Shown: in pieces, positions 1,326 to 50,809 of the stretch
How positions within the stretch are numbered: position 1 is the first letter of the stretch
Layout: each line of letters begins with the position of its first letter
DNA from: an uncultured Lentisphaerota bacterium
GTDB lineage: Bacteria; Verrucomicrobiota; Kiritimatiellia; CAIQIC01
Assembly (NCBI GenBank): GCA_903889245.1
Contig: CAISWQ010000047.1
Span: 1-51,545, forward strand
Direction of reading: 5' to 3'
DNA: 51,545 nt
Notes under the pieces: generated by a model
The model's input: the letters and a program-made list of their open reading frames with translations, nothing else
Told to the model about the DNA's origin: nothing
Database searches by the model: none
Position numbers and translations under genes: made by a program

Positions 1326-2467
1326 GTCGCCGGCTTCTTGCCGCCGCGCAGCGAGATCACCAGCAGATAGGCGAAGCAGGCGGCGGGGACGACGAAGGCG
1401 AGCGCGCCGAACTTCATGTCCACCATCTGGCCCATCAGCAGCGGCACGATCGCGCCGCCGGAAATCGCCATGCACATCAGGCCGCTCAACTCGCTCGCGC
1501 GCTCCGGCTTCTCCTCGACGGTGATGGAGAAGAGCATCGGCCAGATATTCGCGAAGCCGAGGCCGGCGGCGATGACGCCGACAATCGCGAGTTGCTTCTG
1601 GCCGGTGGCGAGCAGGCCGGCGCCGATCACGCCGAGCAGGGCCGAGAGGCGGAAGAAATTGCGCGGCGTCATCACGGAGACCACGACGCCGCCGAGGATA
1701 CGGCCGATGGTCAGCAGGCCGAAGAACATCGTCGGCCCGAACTTGTTGGCCGCGGCTTCTTCGAGCCCGATGCCCTTGAGCAGCGGCAGGAGGAACCGCG
1801 CCATGCAGACCTCGGCGCCGACGTAGAGGAAGATACCCAGCACCGCGAGCGCGAAGACCGGCTCCTTGAGCAGGCCGAGGCTCGACCCAATGCTCGGCGG
1901 CGTATCGGCCTTGGTCTCCTCGACCTTGATCAGCATGACGCCGATGAAGGTGATGACCATCAGGCCGCAGAAGAGCGGGAACGCGCCGCGCCAGCCCATG
2001 CCCTGGAAGATGGCCAGCGCGGTGATCGCGCCGACCAGATAGGTCGAGGCCGTGCTGCCGATGCCCTTGATGCCCTGCGCGAACGCGAGGTTACGGCTGT
2101 AGGCGCCGGCGGGGCTGACATCGCGCATGATCGGGTTGCCCGCGACCTGCAGGAACGTGGTGCCGACGCCGAGGGTGAAGATGCACGCGAGCAGCATCGC
2201 GTAGCCCGGTTCCATCAGGCTGGGGATCAGCATCGCCGCCGCGTTGAGGCCAAGGCCGAGCAGCAGCAGTTTCTTCTTGCCGATGCGCCCGGCGAGCAAC
2301 CCGCCCGGCACGCTGCACACCGCGAACGCGATGAAGACGAAGAACGAGAGCAGCGTCGCCATCACGTTGGTCAGGCCATACTGGGTCTTGACCGCATCGG
2401 ACAGCGGGCCCATGGCGTCGGCGACGCCCATCACGAGGAAGGCCAGGAAGATCGGCAGTGTTTTCAT
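1319..2467 (-). CDS. MFS sugar permease, FucP/GluP-like
   Basis: Inner-membrane sugar importer of 382 aa with about 12 hydrophobic segments, probably sugar/H+ or sugar/Na+ symport. The GRIGKKK loop after helix 2 and the overall pattern match the FucP-like (glucose/galactose/fucose) branch of the major facilitator superfamily. The start at 2467 is preferred over an upstream ATG at 2503 because AGGAG sits about 10 nt before it and the protein then begins directly with the first helix. It is followed by the ROK kinase on the same strand. The sugar is unknown; fucose would fit the fucosidase nearby. Confidence 0.85.
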   Translation of the reverse strand: MKTLPIFLAFLVMGVADAMGPLSDAVKTQYGLTNVMATLLSFFVFIAFAVCSVPGGLLAGRIGKKKLLLLGLGLNAAAMLIPSLMEPGYAMLLACIFTLGVGTTFLQVAGNPIMRDVSPAGAYSRNLAFAQGIKGIGSTASTYLVGAITALAIFQGMGWRGAFPLFCGLMVITFIGVMLIKVEETKADTPPSIGSSLGLLKEPVFALAVLGIFLYVGAEVCMARFLLPLLKGIGLEEAAANKFGPTMFFGLLTIGRILGGVVVSVMTPRNFFRLSALLGVIGAGLLATGQKQLAIVGVIAAGLGFANIWPMLFSITVEEKPERASELSGLMCMAISGGAIVPLLMGQMVDMKFGALAFVVPAACFAYLLVISLRGGKKPATT

Positions 2468-11382: not shown

Positions 11383-11528
11383 TTTTTCCAGGGATTGGAA
11401 AGGGAAACCGGAATTTTTCCAGGGATTGGAAAAATCAGGCCCAACTTTTTCCAAGCCTTGGAAAAGGCAACAGGAAATTTTCCAAGCCTTGGAAAAATAC
11501 CGGGCGGAAATTTCCAAGGCTTGGAAAG
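11383..11528. repeat. Phased dyad cluster, five sites
   Basis: Dyads are centred at 11393, 11424, 11456, 11487 and 11519, with intervals of 31, 32, 31 and 32 bp. This is the largest cluster in the window. It lies between the symporter and the fucosidase, about 175 bp before the fucosidase start. Confidence 0.95.
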
Positions 11529-13499: not shown

Positions 13500-13801
13500 T
13501 TGCGGCGGCAGGCATGCCGCCGCTCCCGGTCAGCCGCCTTCTCCCTCCGGTGGGCGGGAGCTACAGCTCCCGCGTGTTCCGGCGAAAGCCGCAGCCCAAA
13601 CCCATCGGGAGGGCGAGCGTACTCGCGAGCCGCTGGTTGAGTTGGGTGGGGTGGGCCGCACTCTCACGAGTGCGGCTACAGTGTTCGTCCGTAGCCGCGT
13701 TCGTCAGAACGCGGCCAGCCACTGCCGAACCCTGCCAACATCTGCGACTGCGCCGCACTCTTACGAGCGCGGCTACAAACAACCGAACCGCGAAGCGTTT
13801 T
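13500..13801. repeat. Palindrome island upstream of the PQQ-propeller gene
   Basis: This stretch is a mosaic of hairpins: GCGGCGGCA.../...TGCCGCCGC (13502-13523), a single CGGGAGCT-AC-AGCTCCCG arm (13550-13574), and the second copy of the 80-bp element (13601-13680). It continues with GCCGCGTTC-GTCA-GAACGCGGC (13694-13715) and a GCCGCACTC-TTAC-GAGCGCGGC hairpin (13752-13777). No gene is seen here, although one frame happens to be open through it. Confidence 0.7.
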
Positions 13802-16470: not shown

Positions 16471-16673
16471 TATTCTGTGCCGACCTCGCGACCTCAAGGA
16501 ATTCGTCCACGGAATACACCCATCTCATGGGTGGCAAACCCCGGCAGTGTACCGCTAGAAAGCGCGGCAGCGAAAATTTTCGGACGCCGAGCCGCCAGTA
16601 GCCAAACGGAAGGTTCAGTACCAGCACACCCGCCGCCACCACTATTCAAAAGGGCTTGCGGATATTTCAGGAT

Positions 16674-16746
16674 TTGTGGGCGGGAGCTACAGCTCCCGCG
16701 GAAATCAGCATCGGAAAACGCGGGAGCTGTAGCTCCCGCCCACAAG
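16674..16746. repeat. Dimeric hairpin element, variant GGGAGCTACAGCTCCC
   Basis: The left arm 16674-16700 (TTGTGGGCGGGAGCTACAGC onward) and right arm 16719-16746 are inverted copies. Each can also fold on itself. The outer ends GTGGGCGGG/CCCGCCCAC are shared with 13799-13876 and 49264-49342. Confidence 0.9.
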
Positions 16747-18633: not shown

Positions 18634-18682
18634 TTTTCCAAGGCTTGGAAAAACCGCCAATTCTTTTTCCAATCCTTGGAAA
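18634..18682. repeat. Phased dyad pair inside the atp operon
   Basis: Sites are centred at 18643 and 18674, 31 bp apart. They occupy most of the atpG-atpD intergenic gap, abutting the atpG stop codon (18683-18685) and ending about 18 bp before the atpD start. Confidence 0.93.
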
Positions 18683-19579
18683 CTATCCCTTCAGGGCCTC
18701 CGCGCCCGTCACAATTTCCGCCAACTCGCGGGTAATCCCGGCCTGGCGCACGCGGTTGCGCAGCAGCGTATAGGTATCGAGCAGCCGGTCGGAGTTCTTC
18801 GTCGCGTTGTCCATCGCCGACATGCGCGCGCCGTGTTCGCCGGCGGCGCTTTCCAGCAGCGCCGAGAAGATGCGGAAGCGGATGCTCAACGGAATCAACG
18901 TGCCGAGCAGGTGCGGGGCCTGCGGCTCAAAGAGCAGTTCCGGCCGCGGACCGATCATCACGTTCTCCGGCGTCAGCGCCTGCTGCTCCTCGGCCGATGG
19001 CGAGGCGGGCAGCAGCAGGTCAATCCGCGGCTTGCGGCTGACGGCGTTGATGAATTCGTTGAACGCGAGATAGACCTCGTCGTAACTGCCGTCGAGGAAC
19101 AGCTTCATCGCCTCGTCGCCGAGTTCAGCGGCGGTCGTCATGACGGGGGTGGCGGTGACGCCGTCGAGGCTCTGGCGGATCTCCTGCTTGCCGCGGAAAA
19201 ACGACGTCGCCTTGCGGCTGCAGCAGACGAGGTCAATATCGGTGTAACGGTCCTCGCGCTCCAGAATCCAATGGGCCACGAGCCGGTGGATGCCGTGGTT
19301 GAACGAGCCGCACAGGCCACGGTCGGAGGAGACGACGATAATCAAGGCCTTGTAGGCCGGCGCGTGCGGCGTGCACAGCGGCAGTTGAACGTCGCCGGCG
19401 GCGGCCGCGGTGACACGGTGCAGCATCGAGTTCAGCGCATTCGCATAGGGGACGACGCGGGCCTGCGCCGCCTGCGCCTTCTGGAACTTGGTGGCCGAGA
19501 CCATCTGCATGGTCTTGGTCATCTTCCGCGTGTTGCGCAGACTGACGAGCTTCTTGTTGTAATCCTTCAGCGTCGGCAT
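18683..19579 (-). CDS. atpG: ATP synthase F1 gamma subunit
   Basis: Central rotor shaft of 298 aa, normal length. The N-terminal helix (NTRKMTKTMQMVSATKFQKAQ) and the C-terminal helix (ARMSAMDNATKNSDRLLDTYTLLRNRVRQAGITREL) form the coiled coil inside the alpha3beta3 ring. The segment SSDRGLCGSFN in the middle is also conserved. It sits between atpA and atpD in the usual order. Confidence 0.97.
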   Translation of the reverse strand: MPTLKDYNKKLVSLRNTRKMTKTMQMVSATKFQKAQAAQARVVPYANALNSMLHRVTAAAAGDVQLPLCTPHAPAYKALIIVVSSDRGLCGSFNHGIHRLVAHWILEREDRYTDIDLVCCSRKATSFFRGKQEIRQSLDGVTATPVMTTAAELGDEAMKLFLDGSYDEVYLAFNEFINAVSRKPRIDLLLPASPSAEEQQALTPENVMIGPRPELLFEPQAPHLLGTLIPLSIRFRIFSALLESAAGEHGARMSAMDNATKNSDRLLDTYTLLRNRVRQAGITRELAEIVTGAEALKG

Positions 19580-23919: not shown

Positions 23920-23969
23920 TTTTCCAAGGCTTGGAAAACTGACCTTTGACTTTTCCAAGGCTTGGAAAA
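23920..23969. repeat. Phased dyad pair upstream of the atp operon
   Basis: Sites are centred at 23929 and 23960, 31 bp apart, about 230 bp before the atpI-like start. Confidence 0.93.
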
Positions 23970-23991
23970 TTCGACAAAAGATTTTCCCGCC

Positions 23992-24066
23992 GGGTCGGTG
24001 ACCCGGCCTACAGCAAACCCCCTCGTGTCCCTTGAGAGTGGTTGTAGGCCGCGTGACCTCACGCGG
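23992..24066. repeat. Dimeric hairpin element with facing CCTACA/TGTAGG ends
   Basis: The hairpin CGGGTC-GGT-GACCCG (23992-24006) leads into GCCTACA. A 28-bp spacer follows, then TGTAGGCC and the hairpin GCGTGA-CC-TCACGC. The same architecture with different stems recurs at 44353-44426, inside a pseudopilin gene. Confidence 0.75.
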
Positions 24067-24087
24067 CGTGGTCGTTGATCGCTGATT

Positions 24088-24136
24088 ATTCCAAGGCTTG
24101 GAAAAAGCGGCCCCCTGGGTTTCCAATCCTTGGAAA
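24088..24136. repeat. Phased dyad pair downstream of folE
   Basis: Sites are centred at 24096 and 24128, 32 bp apart. With the neighbouring pair at 23929/23960 and the hairpin elements, it makes up the 539-bp gene-free interval 23691-24229. Confidence 0.92.
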
Positions 24137-24144
24137 AGAAAACG

Positions 24145-28797: not shown

Positions 28798-28847
28798 GTT
28801 TCCAAGACTTGGAAATGGAAGCGGGATTTTTTCCAAGCCTTGGAAAA
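28798..28847. repeat. Phased dyad pair upstream of the hydrogenase operon
   Basis: Sites are centred at 28807 (TTCCAAGACTTGGAA) and 28838, 31 bp apart. Confidence 0.93.
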
Positions 28848-35585: not shown

Positions 35586-35596
35586 ATTGCGCGGCC

Positions 35597-35707
35597 TTTC
35601 CAAGGCTTGGAAAAAAGTTTGTGAATTTTTCCAAGGCTTGGAAAAAGCCGGCGTGAGATTTTCCAAGGTCTGGAAAAATCCGCCGGCGCGGTTCCAATGC
35701 TTGGAAA
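35597..35707. repeat. Phased dyad cluster, four sites, inside the hydrogenase operon
   Basis: Sites are centred at 35605, 35636, 35668 and 35699, with intervals of 31, 32 and 31 bp. They fill the gap between the small-subunit and NuoC-like genes. The ribosome-binding site of the latter (GGAG, 35713-35716) begins right after the last site. Confidence 0.95.
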
Positions 35708-40293: not shown

Positions 40294-40344
40294 CTTTTCC
40301 AAGGCTTGGAAAATGGACGCGTTGTTTTTCCAGGGCTTGGAAAA
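40294..40344. repeat. Phased dyad pair before the glycosyltransferase gene
   Basis: Sites are centred at 40304 and 40335 (TTCCAGGGCTTGGAA), 31 bp apart. They lie 60 bp before the glycosyltransferase start. A possible promoter follows (TTGCGC at 40346-40351, 17 bp, TATCAT at 40369-40374). Confidence 0.92.
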
Positions 40345-42002: not shown

Positions 42003-42052
42003 TTTTCCAAGGCTTGGAAAATTATGGCGATGTTTTTCCAAGCCTTGGAAAC
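42003..42052. repeat. Phased dyad pair upstream of the family B polymerase gene
   Basis: Sites are centred at 42012 and 42043, 31 bp apart, between divergent genes. The right half of the second site provides the TTGGAA of the polymerase promoter candidate. Confidence 0.94.
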
Positions 42053-42082: not shown

Positions 42083-44332
42083 ATGAAAGCGGAAGAACAA
42101 GCGCTCATCTTTGGCGCGAACCCTGAACCCGGCCTCGTCGCCATCGAGCACATGCCCGGCAAGGAGGCCGACGAGATGCTGCTCTTCTTCCGGCGCGGCG
42201 GCCAGGTCGCGCAACAGCGCGAGCCGTTCACACCGTTTCTCTGGTTCGCGGCGGCCGAACTGCCGGCGGACTGCCCGGCGCCGCTGCGCGTGGAAAAGCT
42301 GGCGGGCGCTGCGCCCCTGAAAACGCTGGCGCTGTTCCGCTCGTGGAAGGAATTCCAGAAGGCCGTGGACGCCTGCAAGCAGGCCACCGGCTACACGCCC
42401 TCTGATCCCGGCGCGCCCTTTTTTCTGTTGAACGATCCGGTCCACCAGCATCTGCTGCTGACCGGCCGGACCTTTTTCAAGGGGCTGCACTTCGGCGATC
42501 TCAAGCGCCTACAGGTGGACATCGAAACCTACACCGAGAAGGGGTTCGAGTTTTCCAACGCCGGGCGCGCGGGCGACCGCATCATCGCCATCGCGCTGGC
42601 CGATGAGTCTGGCTGGACCGAGGTGCTCGACGGTTCGCGGCTCGACGAGCAGGCGCTGCTCGAACGCTGGGTGCAAATCGTCCACGAGAAGGACCCCGAC
42701 GTGATCGAGGGGCACAACTTTTTCTCGTTCGATCTGCCGTACTTGATCGCGCGCGCCAAGCGGCATGGCGTCAAGCTTGCGCTCGGCCGTAACGGCGCGC
42801 CGCCGCGGGTGCATCCGAGCCGGGTGACGATTGCCGAACGGACGCTCGCCTATCCGAAGGCGGAGCTTTTCGGGCGGCACATCGTGGACACCTACTTCCT
42901 CGCGCAGTTCTACGACGTGAGCCACCGTTCGCTCGAGGGCTTCGGGCTCAAGGACGTGGCGCTTCATTTCGGGCTGGCCGCGCCGGGCCGGACGTACATC
43001 GAGGGTGGCGAGATTGCCGCGACCTTCGACCGCGAACCGGCGAAGCTGATGGCCTACGTACGCGACGACGTGGCCGAGACGCGGGGTATCGGCGCGCTGC
43101 TCTCGGCAAGTTTCTTTGCGCAGTGCCAGATGCTGCCCTATACCTACCAGAACGTCTGTGTGCGCGGCAGCGGGACCAAGGTGGATGCACTGCTGATCCG
43201 CGAGTATCTGCGCCGCCGCCACGCCCTGCCGTTGCCGCAGCCGGCGCGAGAATTCGCCGGCGGCTACACCGACATCTTCCTAACTGGCGTGTTCCAGAAT
43301 GTCCATCACGCCGACGTGCGCTCGCTCTATCCCTCGCTGATGCTGGAGTTCGGCCTCCAGCCGCGCTGCGACGAGCTTGGCAGCTTCCTGACGCTGCTGG
43401 CCTACCTGCGCGACCTGCGCCTCGAGGCGAAGCGCCAGATGCAACAGGCGGCCAGCGACGGCGAGCGGCAGCATCAGGACGCCTTGCAGAGCACCTTCAA
43501 GATTCTGATCAACTCGTTCTACGGCTACCTTGGTTTTGCGACGGCGCGCTTCTGCGATTTTGCCGCGGCCGAGAAAGTCGCCGCCGAGGGCCGCAAGATT
43601 CTCCAGGCGATGCTCGCGGCGATCAGGCAGCAGGGCGGCACGCCGATCGAGATTGATACCGATGGCGTCTATTTCCTGCCGCCGGAGAAGGGGGTGGATT
43701 TATTCCGCGCCGCGGTGCAGGCGGCGCTGCCCAAGGGCATCGAGATCGAGTTCGACGACCGCTACCGCGCGATGTTGAGCTACAAGATGAAGAACTACGC
43801 GTTGCTCGATGACCAGGGCGAGATCATCATCCGCGGCGCGGCGCTCAAGTCGCGCGGGTTGGAAAAATTCCAGCGCCACTATCTGCGCGAATGGCTGCGG
43901 CTCAAGCTGGAGGGGCGCGACGCCGATATTCCGAAACTGCAAAATGAGTTCCGTCGCGCGATCAGCGCGCGCGCCTGGCCCATCGGCGAGTTGGCGAAGA
44001 CCGAGACACTGCAGGACGCGCCTGCCACCTACGCCGCGAAGATCAAGGACAGCCGCCGCGGCCGCAACGCGGCCTATGAGCTCGCGCTCAAGTCCGGTCG
44101 CGAGTATCGCGCGGGCGACCAGCTTTCCTACTATGTCACCGGCACCGCCAAGAGCGTCGCGGTCCACGGCGCGGCCAAGCTGGCGGCGGAGTTCGATGCG
44201 CAGCGCCGCGATGAAAATGTGGCCTATTACCTCGCCAAGCTCGAAGCGCTGATCGAAAAATTTGATGCACTTTTTATCGCGGGCGGGCAAGATGCCGCCG
44301 CGGACGGCAAAGAGGAAGGAATGTTGCTATGA
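42083..44332 (+). CDS. Family B DNA polymerase with 3'-5' exonuclease domain
   Basis: DNA polymerase of 749 aa, related to Pol II or archaeal-type family B enzymes. Exonuclease motifs are intact: VDIETYT (Asp146, Glu148), EGHNFFSFDLPYL and YVRDDVAET. Polymerase motifs are also intact: ADVRSLYPSL (A), KILINSFYGYLG (B) and EIDTDGVYF (C, catalytic Asp pair). The usual family has about 780 aa. In several bacteria such enzymes act in DNA repair, but no SOS box was recognised here. It overlaps the downstream pseudopilin gene by 4 bp (ATGA), an unusual pairing. Confidence 0.93.
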   Translation: MKAEEQALIFGANPEPGLVAIEHMPGKEADEMLLFFRRGGQVAQQREPFTPFLWFAAAELPADCPAPLRVEKLAGAAPLKTLALFRSWKEFQKAVDACKQATGYTPSDPGAPFFLLNDPVHQHLLLTGRTFFKGLHFGDLKRLQVDIETYTEKGFEFSNAGRAGDRIIAIALADESGWTEVLDGSRLDEQALLERWVQIVHEKDPDVIEGHNFFSFDLPYLIARAKRHGVKLALGRNGAPPRVHPSRVTIAERTLAYPKAELFGRHIVDTYFLAQFYDVSHRSLEGFGLKDVALHFGLAAPGRTYIEGGEIAATFDREPAKLMAYVRDDVAETRGIGALLSASFFAQCQMLPYTYQNVCVRGSGTKVDALLIREYLRRRHALPLPQPAREFAGGYTDIFLTGVFQNVHHADVRSLYPSLMLEFGLQPRCDELGSFLTLLAYLRDLRLEAKRQMQQAASDGERQHQDALQSTFKILINSFYGYLGFATARFCDFAAAEKVAAEGRKILQAMLAAIRQQGGTPIEIDTDGVYFLPPEKGVDLFRAAVQAALPKGIEIEFDDRYRAMLSYKMKNYALLDDQGEIIIRGAALKSRGLEKFQRHYLREWLRLKLEGRDADIPKLQNEFRRAISARAWPIGELAKTETLQDAPATYAAKIKDSRRGRNAAYELALKSGREYRAGDQLSYYVTGTAKSVAVHGAAKLAAEFDAQRRDENVAYYLAKLEALIEKFDALFIAGGQDAAADGKEEGMLL

Positions 44333-44871
44333 AAGAAACGGCTTTCAGATCGCCACGTGAGGTCACACGGCCTACAGCACGGATTCAGGCGGGGATGTTT
44401 GTAGGCCCGGTCACCCGACCGGGCGCGAAAGCGTTTCATCATAGCCGGGCGGGCTTCTCATTCATCGAGATCATTGTGGTGATGGTCATCATTGCGATCC
44501 TCGCGGGGGTGGTGACGGTGAACGTGCTGCACAAGCCGGCCGAGGCCAAAATCTCGGCGGCGAAGATGCAGCTCCAGCAGTTGCGCACGGCGGTGGAGTT
44601 GTATATGGCCGAACAAGGTCGCGCACCGACCCAGGAGCAGGGGCTGCAGGCGCTGGTGCGCAAAACCAGCCTGCCGCCGGTGCCGGAACGTTTCCCGCCC
44701 AACGGCTATCTCAACGGCTCCTCCGTGCCGCTTGATCCCTGGAAACACGCCTATGTCTACCTCGTGCCCGGCCGCAGCAACGAGGTGTTCGAGATCCTCA
44801 GCTACGGCAGTGATGGCGAGCCCGGCGGCGCCGCCGATGGTGCGGACCTCTCCAGCTCTAACTTGCAGTGA
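44329..44871 (+). CDS. Type II secretion major pseudopilin (GspG-like) with an unusually long leader
   Basis: Pseudopilin of 180 aa. The prepilin cleavage site is RAGFSFIEIIVVMVIIAILAG: Gly42 before Phe43, with Glu47 at the +5 position. The GspG body follows, with KMQLQQLRTAVELYMAEQGRAPTQEQGLQALV and the C-terminal Ca2+-site-like region SYGSDGEPGGAADGADL. A normal leader is under about 10 residues; this one is 42, because the paired hairpin element at 44353-44426 lies within it. A later start at Met23 is possible. Confidence 0.88.
   Translation: MKETAFRSPREVTRPTARIQAGMFVGPVTRPGAKAFHHSRAGFSFIEIIVVMVIIAILAGVVTVNVLHKPAEAKISAAKMQLQQLRTAVELYMAEQGRAPTQEQGLQALVRKTSLPPVPERFPPNGYLNGSSVPLDPWKHAYVYLVPGRSNEVFEILSYGSDGEPGGAADGADLSSSNLQ
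44353..44426. repeat. Dimeric hairpin element with facing CCTACA/TGTAGG ends, within the GspG-like gene
   Basis: The left arm CGTGAGGTCACACGGCCTAC (from 44354) pairs imperfectly with itself. The right arm TGTAGGCCCGGTCACCCGAC (from 44400) folds as CCCGGTC-ACCC-GACCGGG. It has the same design as 23992-24066 with other stem sequences. Confidence 0.75.
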
Positions 44872-44882
44872 ACAGAGAGACG

Positions 44883-44920
44883 GGAGCACTGGAGTGATGG
44901 AGTATTGGAGTAGTGGAACG
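44883..44920. repeat. Degenerate TGGAGTAT word repeat
   Basis: Tandem words CACTGGAG, TGATGGAG, TATTGGAG, TAGTGG lie between the two pseudopilin genes. It is the same family as 24145-24235. Confidence 0.7.
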
Positions 44921-44986
44921 GCCACCAGTGCGAAACAGCCATACGTGGCCCGGCAGGCCTCGCCCTCCACCCGCCGCACCAGTCTG

Positions 44987-45409
44987 ATGACCTGTTTTCT
45001 TCTAAGCAAGCTGGCGGCTGCTCGTCGCCCCACACTCCAGCCCTCCCACACTCCAGCCCTTCAGGCCTCTTCCGCCTCCGGCTTCACGCTGATTGAGGTT
45101 GTTGTGGCGTTCACGGTGGCGGCGCTGATCATCGCCGCCGTGGCGAGCGGTCTGGTGGCAGCGTTGCGCGCGGAGGCGACCGCGCAGCGGCAGCAGACCG
45201 CCGGCGAGGCGCTGCGGACTTTGCAGACGGGCCTCTGGCTGGGTATAGACACGAACAGCCTGGCCACCAACCTGCCCGCGGGCTGGCGCCTTGCCAGCGA
45301 GACGACCGAGCATGGAGAGGGCAGCAACCGTGTGGTCTGGAGCCAGTGGCGGCTGGAAGCCCATACCCGGCCTTCCTGCTCTGCGGGTCTGGCCTCCCAG
45401 CAACCCTGA
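44987..45409 (+). CDS. Type II secretion minor pseudopilin (GspI/GspH-like) with repeat-derived leader
   Basis: Protein of 140 aa from ATG 44987. The cleavage motif ASGFTLIEVVVAFTVAALIIAA places Gly32 before Phe33, with Glu37 at +5. Upstream, leader residues of the LQPSHTPALQA type come from the word repeat at 45032-45065. The body (EATAQRQQTAGEALRTLQTGLW) resembles GspI. The C-terminal 15 or so residues look unstructured. The start is uncertain, because the frame is open further upstream through another repeat. It follows the GspG-like gene by 115 bp. Confidence 0.78.
   Translation: MTCFLLSKLAAARRPTLQPSHTPALQASSASGFTLIEVVVAFTVAALIIAAVASGLVAALRAEATAQRQQTAGEALRTLQTGLWLGIDTNSLATNLPAGWRLASETTEHGEGSNRVVWSQWRLEAHTRPSCSAGLASQQP
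45032..45065. repeat. Degenerate CACACTCCAGCCCT word repeat within a pseudopilin leader
   Basis: Words CACACTCCAGCCCTC, CCACACTCCAGCCCTTC run in tandem in frame. They encode the segment just before the prepilin peptidase site. Confidence 0.7.
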
Positions 45410-49189: not shown

Positions 49190-49263
49190 GGCGTTACACA
49201 ACACCAAAGCAGCGGCACTGGCAAGTGCGAAACCTGAAGGACCGAGCACTGGGCTGTGTGGAT

Positions 49264-49342
49264 TTGTGGGCGGGAGCTACAGCTCCCGCGTTGGGGCGAC
49301 AGATTGTGTCAGCTTCGCGGGAGCTGTAGCCCCCGCCCACAA
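49264..49342. repeat. Dimeric hairpin element, variant GGGAGCTACAGCTCCC
   Basis: The left arm 49264-49290 and right arm 49317-49342 match 16674-16746 except for one base near the end (GTAGCCCCC for GTAGCTCCC). The centre between the arms is different. Confidence 0.88.
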
Positions 49343-49348
49343 GCGTTC

Positions 49349-50809
49349 TTACGTCCCTTGCTGCCACTGGCCGACGCGCGCGGCGAGGTCGGCGGCCTGG
49401 AGAATATCACCGATGACAGCAAAGCCGTTGGCGGCGGGCAGTTCGCGGGCGCGCTCCGGCGTCAGCGCACCGATGGCGGCCACCGGCGCGGGCGCGAGCG
49501 CCGCGAGCCGACCGAACCCCGCGGCGCCCAGCGCCGGGTGCGCCAGCGTCTTCGTCGTGGTGGCGAAGACCGGGCCGATGGCGATGTAGCTTGGCCGCAC
49601 CGCGGCGGCGCATGCCAGCTCGGTGTAATTGTGCGTGCTGATGCCGAGGCGCAGGCCGCCGTGTGCGAGCGCGGCGAGGTCGGCACCGGGCAGGTCTTCC
49701 TGGCCCAGATGCACGCCGTAGGCGCGATGCTTCAGGGCCAATTCCCAGGCGTCGTTGATGAAGAGCCGCGCATTGAAGTGCCGGGCGAGTTCGATGGCGG
49801 CCACGATTTCCTTTTCCAGCGCCGCGCCCGTCAGGTCCTTGGCGCGCAGTTGGATCGTCGTGATGCCGAGTGGCAGCAGTTTCTCCAGCCACGCGGCGCG
49901 ATTTACCAGTGGATAAACGCCGAGCCGCTGCGTGCCGCAGTCGCGGAACTGCGGGCGGTCGCGACCGCCCTCGGAGGTTGCGGTCAGCCAGGGCAGATCG
50001 GATGCGTTGGCTGGCCAGCCCAGATGCGCGGGTGAGCCGCGGCCCTGTCCGATGTCCGCGCCACACCGCAGGCCCTGATTCAGGTACGCTTTGGCAATCA
50101 CGATTGCGTCGGCGAGCGGATGGCCGAGCGCACGCGCCGCGGCGATGGCCGAGGCGAGGGTGCAGCCCGTGCCGTGTGTGTGGTGGACCTGCTGGCGCGG
50201 ACTGGTCAGCCAGAACGACTGCCGGCCGTCGAAAAAATAATCCTGTGCGATTTCGCCGCCGCCGTGTCCACCCTTGATCAGCACGGCGCGCGCGCCACGC
50301 CGCAAAAGTTCGGCAGCGGCGGCCGGGACCTCTTCCAAACCTTGGAAATTCCGGCCGAGCAGTTTTCCAAGCTCTGGAAAATTCGGCGTGATGAGATCGG
50401 CACGCGGCAGCAGCCTGTCCATCATCAGCCGCCAACCCTGCTCATCGAGCAACGCCGCGCCGCTGGTCGCAGCCAGTACGGGATCGCAGACGACGAACGC
50501 GTCGGACCACTGCAGAAAATCGGCGACCACCTTGACCTGCGCCGCCCCGCCCAGCATGCCGAGCTTGATGGCGGCCGGCGGCAGGTCCTCGGCCAGCCGG
50601 TCAATCTGCGCGCGGAGCAGTTCCGGTGTGACCGGTTCGACGGCGAAGACGCCGGTGGTGTTCTGCACCGTCAGCGCACTGACGACCGTACAGGCGTGAA
50701 CGCCGAGCCCGTGCATGGTCTTGAGGTCGGCCTGTAAACCCGCGCCGCCGCCCGGGTCGCTGCCGGCGATGGTCCAGCAGATGGGGTGATGTCCTTGGTC
50801 AGTGGTCAT
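49349..50809 (-). CDS. thiDE: Bifunctional HMP-P kinase / thiamine-phosphate synthase (ThiD-ThiE fusion)
   Basis: Cytoplasmic enzyme of 486 aa for thiamine synthesis. ThiD (about residues 1-255) phosphorylates HMP-P: IAGSDPGGGAGLQADLKT, VCDPVLAATSG, TPNFPEL, KGGH and HHTHGTGCTLASA are its motifs. ThiE (about 290-486) joins HMP-PP and the thiazole: TIQLRAKD, FINDAWELA, GVHLGQEDLPG, ISTHN and IGPVFATTTK. The linker includes a palindrome at 49953-49970. A dyad pair lies in frame within the ThiD region. It starts 3 bp after the PabB-PabC fusion, so the two are probably co-transcribed. Confidence 0.95.
   Translation of the reverse strand: MTTDQGHHPICWTIAGSDPGGGAGLQADLKTMHGLGVHACTVVSALTVQNTTGVFAVEPVTPELLRAQIDRLAEDLPPAAIKLGMLGGAAQVKVVADFLQWSDAFVVCDPVLAATSGAALLDEQGWRLMMDRLLPRADLITPNFPELGKLLGRNFQGLEEVPAAAAELLRRGARAVLIKGGHGGGEIAQDYFFDGRQSFWLTSPRQQVHHTHGTGCTLASAIAAARALGHPLADAIVIAKAYLNQGLRCGADIGQGRGSPAHLGWPANASDLPWLTATSEGGRDRPQFRDCGTQRLGVYPLVNRAAWLEKLLPLGITTIQLRAKDLTGAALEKEIVAAIELARHFNARLFINDAWELALKHRAYGVHLGQEDLPGADLAALAHGGLRLGISTHNYTELACAAAVRPSYIAIGPVFATTTKTLAHPALGAAGFGRLAALAPAPVAAIGALTPERARELPAANGFAVIGDILQAADLAARVGQWQQGT
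49953..49970. repeat. Perfect 18-bp palindrome in the thiD-thiE linker
   Basis: GGGCGGTCGCGACCGCCC lies in the interdomain linker, encoding a Gly/Arg-rich stretch. It resembles the other hairpin arms in this genome. Confidence 0.6.
50332..50381. repeat. Phased dyad pair inside the thiD coding region
   Basis: Sites are centred at 50340 and 50372, 32 bp apart. In the reading frame they encode NFPELGK and RNFQGLEE. The first fits the conserved TPNxxE motif of ThiD, so neither site disrupts the protein. Confidence 0.9.

Follow-up and report, generated by a model that had tools for sequence, protein, structure and literature searches.

The leader of the type II secretion pseudopilin gene gspG contains a member of a dispersed REPIN family, a relationship that went unrecognised in the initial annotation of this DNA. 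The odd 42-residue leader is explained as a mobile repeat in coding sequence. Our preferred reading, which we consider about 85% probable, is a neutral in-frame insertion that was tolerated since the leader is discarded. A REPIN is a small mobile repeat that would rely on a separately encoded REP-associated tyrosine transposase (RAYT), and this copy would have inserted into the gspG leader codons in the lineage of the present genome. Because the copy measures 75 nt, which is divisible by three, and is stop-free in the gspG frame, it would be translated as 25 added leader residues. The leader would stay in the cytoplasm and be removed by prepilin peptidase. The mature pseudopilin should then be unchanged, so that the insertion was probably close to neutral.

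The window, by which we mean the whole stretch of 51,545 nucleotides analysed, carries gspG at positions 44329-44871 of the forward strand. The 180-residue product scores 119.2 bits with TIGR01710 (cut-off 88.85), which places it within this curated model, and 102 bits with PF08334; the match to PF07963 (N_methyl), at 29.7 bits, is also over its cut-off. TIGR01710 and PF08334 thus bear out the identification of the open reading frame as GspG, the major pseudopilin. Counting from the start codon at position 44329 (ATG44329), the prepilin glycine is residue 42, as previously proposed. The N-terminus has the features of a class III signal peptide, with a hydrophilic leader, the glycine, and a hydrophobic segment whose fifth residue is Glu. 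From the N_methyl match, prepilin peptidase is predicted to cut between Gly42 and Phe43 (44452-44457, forward strand), in the context ...SRAG/FSFIEIIVVM, and cleavage probably occurs there. A prepilin peptidase is encoded in the same genome (G000; 5.26 Mb, 125 contigs, 96.6% complete), where one PF01478 match of 70.8 bits is found on contig C28. Immediately upstream of gspG is the family-B DNA polymerase gene polB (42083-44332, forward strand), the stop codon of which overlaps the gspG start (ATGA). The layout is the same in the congeners G002 and G003. The occurrence of polB directly upstream of gspG, and overlapping it, in this genus is an odd pairing for a secretion gene.

The REPIN spans positions 44351-44425 of the forward strand and comprises two GTAG-tagged palindromes in inverted orientation. 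Its 75 nt correspond to 25 codons, in frame within the gspG leader. The initial annotation had placed a hairpin element at 44353-44426; the two-hairpin structure holds, but comparison with other genomic copies fixed the limits differently. The first REP half (44351-44375, reverse strand) is inverted and ends with CTAC (44372-44375). One stem pair is broken in this half, by comparison with the intact variant seen in the copies at loci L020 and L022. A spacer (44376-44400) follows and contains ATG44395, the leader's sole additional in-frame start codon. The second half (44401-44425, forward strand) starts with GTAG (44401-44404) and has an 8-bp stem, as recognised from sequence, folding and pattern search. 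Alignment of the family and conservation of the stem also mark the unit as a GTAG-tagged palindrome. The encoded residues are hydrophilic and carry a net positive charge. REPINs are usually, if not strictly, extragenic; this copy sits within a gene. Folding energy was rejected as proof of the element, with z only -1.7 to -2.4, and family evidence was used instead.

That family is abundant. With the element as the query, there were 54 matches in its own genome. When one mismatch was tolerated, the half-element pattern TAGGCCNNGTNACNNNACNNGGCG occurred 102 times in the genome, and a reversed-pattern control gave no occurrences. Within the window the REP pattern was observed 3 times compared with 0.03 expected. 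At both scales the family exceeds chance. Across the window together with 49 fetched stretches we counted 153 half-elements and 56 head-to-head pairs (REPINs), a tally that covers stretches around listed places rather than the whole genome; at least one of the 153, at window positions 44054-44076, is a chance match in polB and was rejected as a REP. Two stem pairs left free by the search pattern were Watson-Crick in 150 and 151 of the 153 half-elements, and G-C, C-G and A-T were all seen. Since these free pairs stay Watson-Crick while their bases vary, the REP hairpin itself is conserved. REPIN copies are 54-116 bp in length here. The window has a second REPIN of the same family (23988-24068, forward strand; 81 nt), which has no candidate reading frame within a gene.

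Two Y1 transposase matches are present in the genome. One is a RAYT of 163 aa at positions 1287-1775 of contig C113 (locus L022), which scores 89.2 bits with NF047646 (cut-off 80). Its best relative of solved structure is TnpAREP (PDB 4er8; E 1e-12). REPs of the gspG-element family directly flank this gene on both sides and, on the sequence evidence, its product is the likely mobiliser of the REPIN family. Among congeners, G002 has a RAYT that is 80% identical and 32 REPs, and G003 has a RAYT that is 78% identical and 21 REPs. Congener G001 has no close RAYT, distant ones only, and 1 REP. Any REP match at all was found in 10 of the 29 genomes searched, the present one included. Two genomes are misfits to a strict pairing of RAYT and REPs: in G011, 34 REPs are accompanied by no RAYT match at 1e-8, and in G015 a RAYT of 46% identity is accompanied by a single REP.

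Comparison with relatives places the REPIN in this lineage. The element is absent from gspG of G001, G002 and G003, where the leaders are 10, 17 and 15-16 residues long, respectively. Thus, the short-leader version that the initial annotation suggested seeking in related genomes does exist. The position of the gspG start, and the start codon, are common to the present genome and all three congeners. The REPIN supplies 25 of the 42 leader residues here, and the remaining 17 equal the leader length of G002 and are near that of G003. Compared with G001, a further 21 nt are extra beyond the REPIN. The proposal that the element lengthened the leader therefore holds against the congeners, but the element accounts for only part of the excess length relative to the shortest of them. 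More widely, a GspG match was found in 51 of 56 genomes searched, again including the present one. Of 29 GspG loci fetched, L035 and L051 dropped out; in the other 27 the motif was readable, and their leaders, measured from the nearest ATG, were 4-23 aa long with a median of 13. None of the GspG orthologues read had a comparably extended leader. Lengths of 11-23 aa were usual, and the earlier statement that leaders are normally under about 10 residues was too strict. According to the part of PMC10191384 covered, prepilin leaders are hydrophilic, lie in the cytoplasm and vary in length. Annotators should be aware that, in repeat-rich Verrucomicrobia, a long prepilin leader is not necessarily the result of a wrong start codon.

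Other members of the family also lie within genes. A codon-score screen, which is crude and can miss genes, flagged 7 of the 56 REPINs, and the cases retained, with orthologue support, were gspG, rsmE and uvrB (3 of 56). In rsmE, a 57-nt REPIN is in frame in the middle of the gene (locus L130, G000:C44:100200-103300, positions 1505-1561), and the insert is present in none of 8 aligned orthologues. In uvrB, a 66-nt REPIN is in frame in the C-terminal tail (locus L155, G000:C116:7300-10400, positions 1497-1562, reverse strand) and is present in none of 6 aligned tails, a further locus (L197) having dropped out. The extra segments exceed the REPIN itself, at about 35 residues in rsmE and about 39 in uvrB. 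All three in-gene copies have a length divisible by three, compared with 19 of 56 REPINs overall. All three are also read in the frame most frequently open among copies with such lengths (28 of 38 strand-readings). The peptides are alike, with PREVTRPT...VGPVT in GspG and UvrB and PGQVTRPT...VGRVT in RsmE. Such shared length, frame and peptide would be expected if harmless insertions survive, and selection for the peptide is not needed.

Other flagged places were set aside. At L142 the likely start, an ATG with a signal-like stretch, is 10 nt past the element. The frame at L130:1833-1899 is antisense over rsmE, and that at L156 is a frame without a recognised protein. At L145 (1496-1570, reverse strand) a REPIN lies where a glycoside hydrolase-like gene begins and is a candidate coding copy only. 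Among 41 single REPs examined there was no convincing in-gene case.

How much of the gspG element is translated depends on the start codon. Two standard start codons precede Gly42 in frame, ATG44329 and ATG44395. Past the element, no in-frame ATG, GTG or TTG occurs before Gly42, and the leader therefore retains REP-encoded residues whichever standard start is used; initiation after the element and near the cleavage site, which would speak against the original proposal, is not available at these codons. Use of ATG44395, within the spacer, would leave the REPIN mostly untranslated, with its first half as a 5' structured region and a leader of 20 residues that still includes one REP half. We consider this rather improbable. 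The codon is in frame, the resulting leader would fall within the orthologue range of 4-23, and Di Nocera and co-workers, in the part of PMC3733652 covered, judged many N-terminal REPs in other species untranslated owing to downstream starts. Conversely, ATG44329 is conserved in G001-G003, and in G002 and G003 it likewise overlaps the polB stop. The Shine-Dalgarno match of ATG44329 is also the better one and is well spaced (-7.3 kcal/mol at 9 nt, compared with -6.3 kcal/mol at 1 nt for ATG44395). Translation thus probably starts at ATG44329 and, even were ATG44395 used, half of the element would still be coding. The element could instead have been kept to control gspG, if its hairpins, together with outer arms on either side, closed a stem over the start and coupled translation to completion of polB. 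The left outer arm (44326-44346, forward strand) includes the start codon and is an imperfect inverted copy of the right outer arm (44427-44445, reverse strand), which encodes the leader residues just before Ser-Arg-Ala-Gly. The arms are identical in 18 of 21 alignment columns, a score equalled by 4 of 5000 random 40-mers. The start codon is predicted to be paired, with a probability near 1, in three fold windows, and the overlap of polB and gspG would suit such coupling. However, the predicted unpaired probability of the start codon, 0.00-0.01 here, is 0.01-0.13 in G001, which has no element; it is 0.93-0.97 in G002 and 0.34-0.82 in G003. Occlusion of the start is hence not specific to the element, and we rejected it as an effect of the insertion. 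Opening energies overlap (12.4 kcal/mol here; 10.6, 8.0 and 10.6 kcal/mol in G001, G002 and G003, respectively), and the pairing energy of the outer arms was matched at 1279 of 20000 random window sites (6.4%). Selection for such control is therefore unlikely.

A role for the extended leader in membrane targeting or pseudopilin sorting is more doubtful still, and we regard it as highly implausible. The element does add positive charge on the presumed cytoplasmic side, which would accord with the positive-inside rule. (The rule is also given in the covered part of PMC10191384.) However, no such leader was found among the orthologues read, and UvrB and RsmE, neither of them a membrane protein, contain the same repeat peptide. 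The initial annotation had raised effects of the element on translation or membrane targeting, and nothing in the data shows either; an effect on translation, judged from the predicted folds, is possible but unsupported. Neutral insertion into a discarded leader remains our preferred explanation, with neutrality itself a likely part of it.

The outer arms also bear on how a neutral insertion might have arisen. On the right, the flanking sequence looks like the gspG start region in inverted form, although the resemblance is suggestive only. A simple 75-nt insertion may not be the whole of the event behind the long leader. A general rule that REPINs lie between inverted flanks was rejected, since 12 of 200 re-paired shuffles were as good as the mean pairing of the 56 REPINs. 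The strongest cases of flank pairing involved neighbouring REPs or a group that shares arms (L149, L153 and L158). In that group, three REPINs (L149:5161-5231, L153:7467-7544 and L158:1545-1623) have long shared outer arms, as if nested in a larger repeat.

In-gene REP dimers are already known, and the gspG site is a new example. GTAG REP dimers within genes, in frame and contributing 20-30 residues, were described in 2013 and were most numerous in the verrucomicrobium Opitutus terrae (PMC3733652, as far as covered). The copies reported here are likewise dimers of a GTAG palindrome, in frame in real genes of a verrucomicrobial host. Excision-repair genes are among the intragenic targets in the covered text of PMC3733652, and the excision-repair gene uvrB is one of the three here. 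Together with gspG and rsmE, it joins the genes known to have in-frame REP dimers. At one of these sites, gspG, there is a simple reason for tolerance, in that the leader is discarded. A prepilin leader is not named as a REP target in the text of PMC3733652 covered, and the target list in its Additional file 3 may include one. A literature search for REPINs tied to pseudopilins found no paper.

The anatomy of the family is like that of the REPINs of Pseudomonas fluorescens, where, in the part of PMC3116915 covered, two inverted REPs form a dispersed unit of GTAG and palindrome and a RAYT is flanked by the same REPs. The two differ in placement. In P. fluorescens nearly all copies lie outside genes, with 14 of the most abundant 16-mers, of 1,067, overlapping a gene (PMC3116915), whereas at least 3 of 56 REPINs here are in genes, and in frame. 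Rickettsia palindromic elements are similarly in-frame palindromic repeats in unrelated protein-coding genes (review PMC10969869, part covered), a likeness by description. They differ in length, at about 150 bp compared with 54-116 bp, and the covered part of PMC10969869 does not mention a tyrosine transposase, whereas the family described here has a RAYT.

The gene after gspG encodes a second pseudopilin (44897-45409; PF07963), with its glycine at 45080. No in-frame ATG, GTG or TTG is nearer than 32 residues to this glycine, so its leader is at least 32 residues long. The leader region matches 31 other places in the genome and contains dispersed short repeats (44883-44920 and 45028-45056). 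In G001 the counterpart leader region is an unrelated palindrome family with 43 matches in that genome, itself included. The counterpart in G003 has a 7-residue leader. Among 30 prepilins read in the present genome, using the nearest usable start, only gspG and the adjacent gene have such long repeat-bearing leaders. It is possible, though we hold it only tentatively, that, in this genus, dispersed repeats repeatedly land and persist in prepilin leaders, as the encoded residues are cut off. If general, leader length would record past insertions and serve as a natural neutral tag. Two neighbouring genes are too few to claim that leaders collect repeats, and the idea is put forward in testable form. 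The expectation that all prepilins of the genome would have REPs was rejected, as the gspG leader was the only one with them in the 30 examined of 34 matches. At prepilin L061 a REP is about 180 nt upstream and outside the nearest, 6-residue, leader.

Two other dispersed repeats were seen in the window. The palindrome TTTTCCAAGGCTTGGAAAA occurs mostly in pairs with a spacing of about 31 nt, and gave 49 strand matches compared with 0.00 expected. Sites of this family are at 111-160, 11384-11528, 18634-18683, 23920-24137, 28798-28847, 35596-35677, 40295-40344, 42003-42052, 46645 and 50331-50381. Another dispersed palindrome, GTGGGCGGGAGCTACAGCTCCCGCG, has at least three copies, at 13550-13581, 16670-16743 and 49260-49292.
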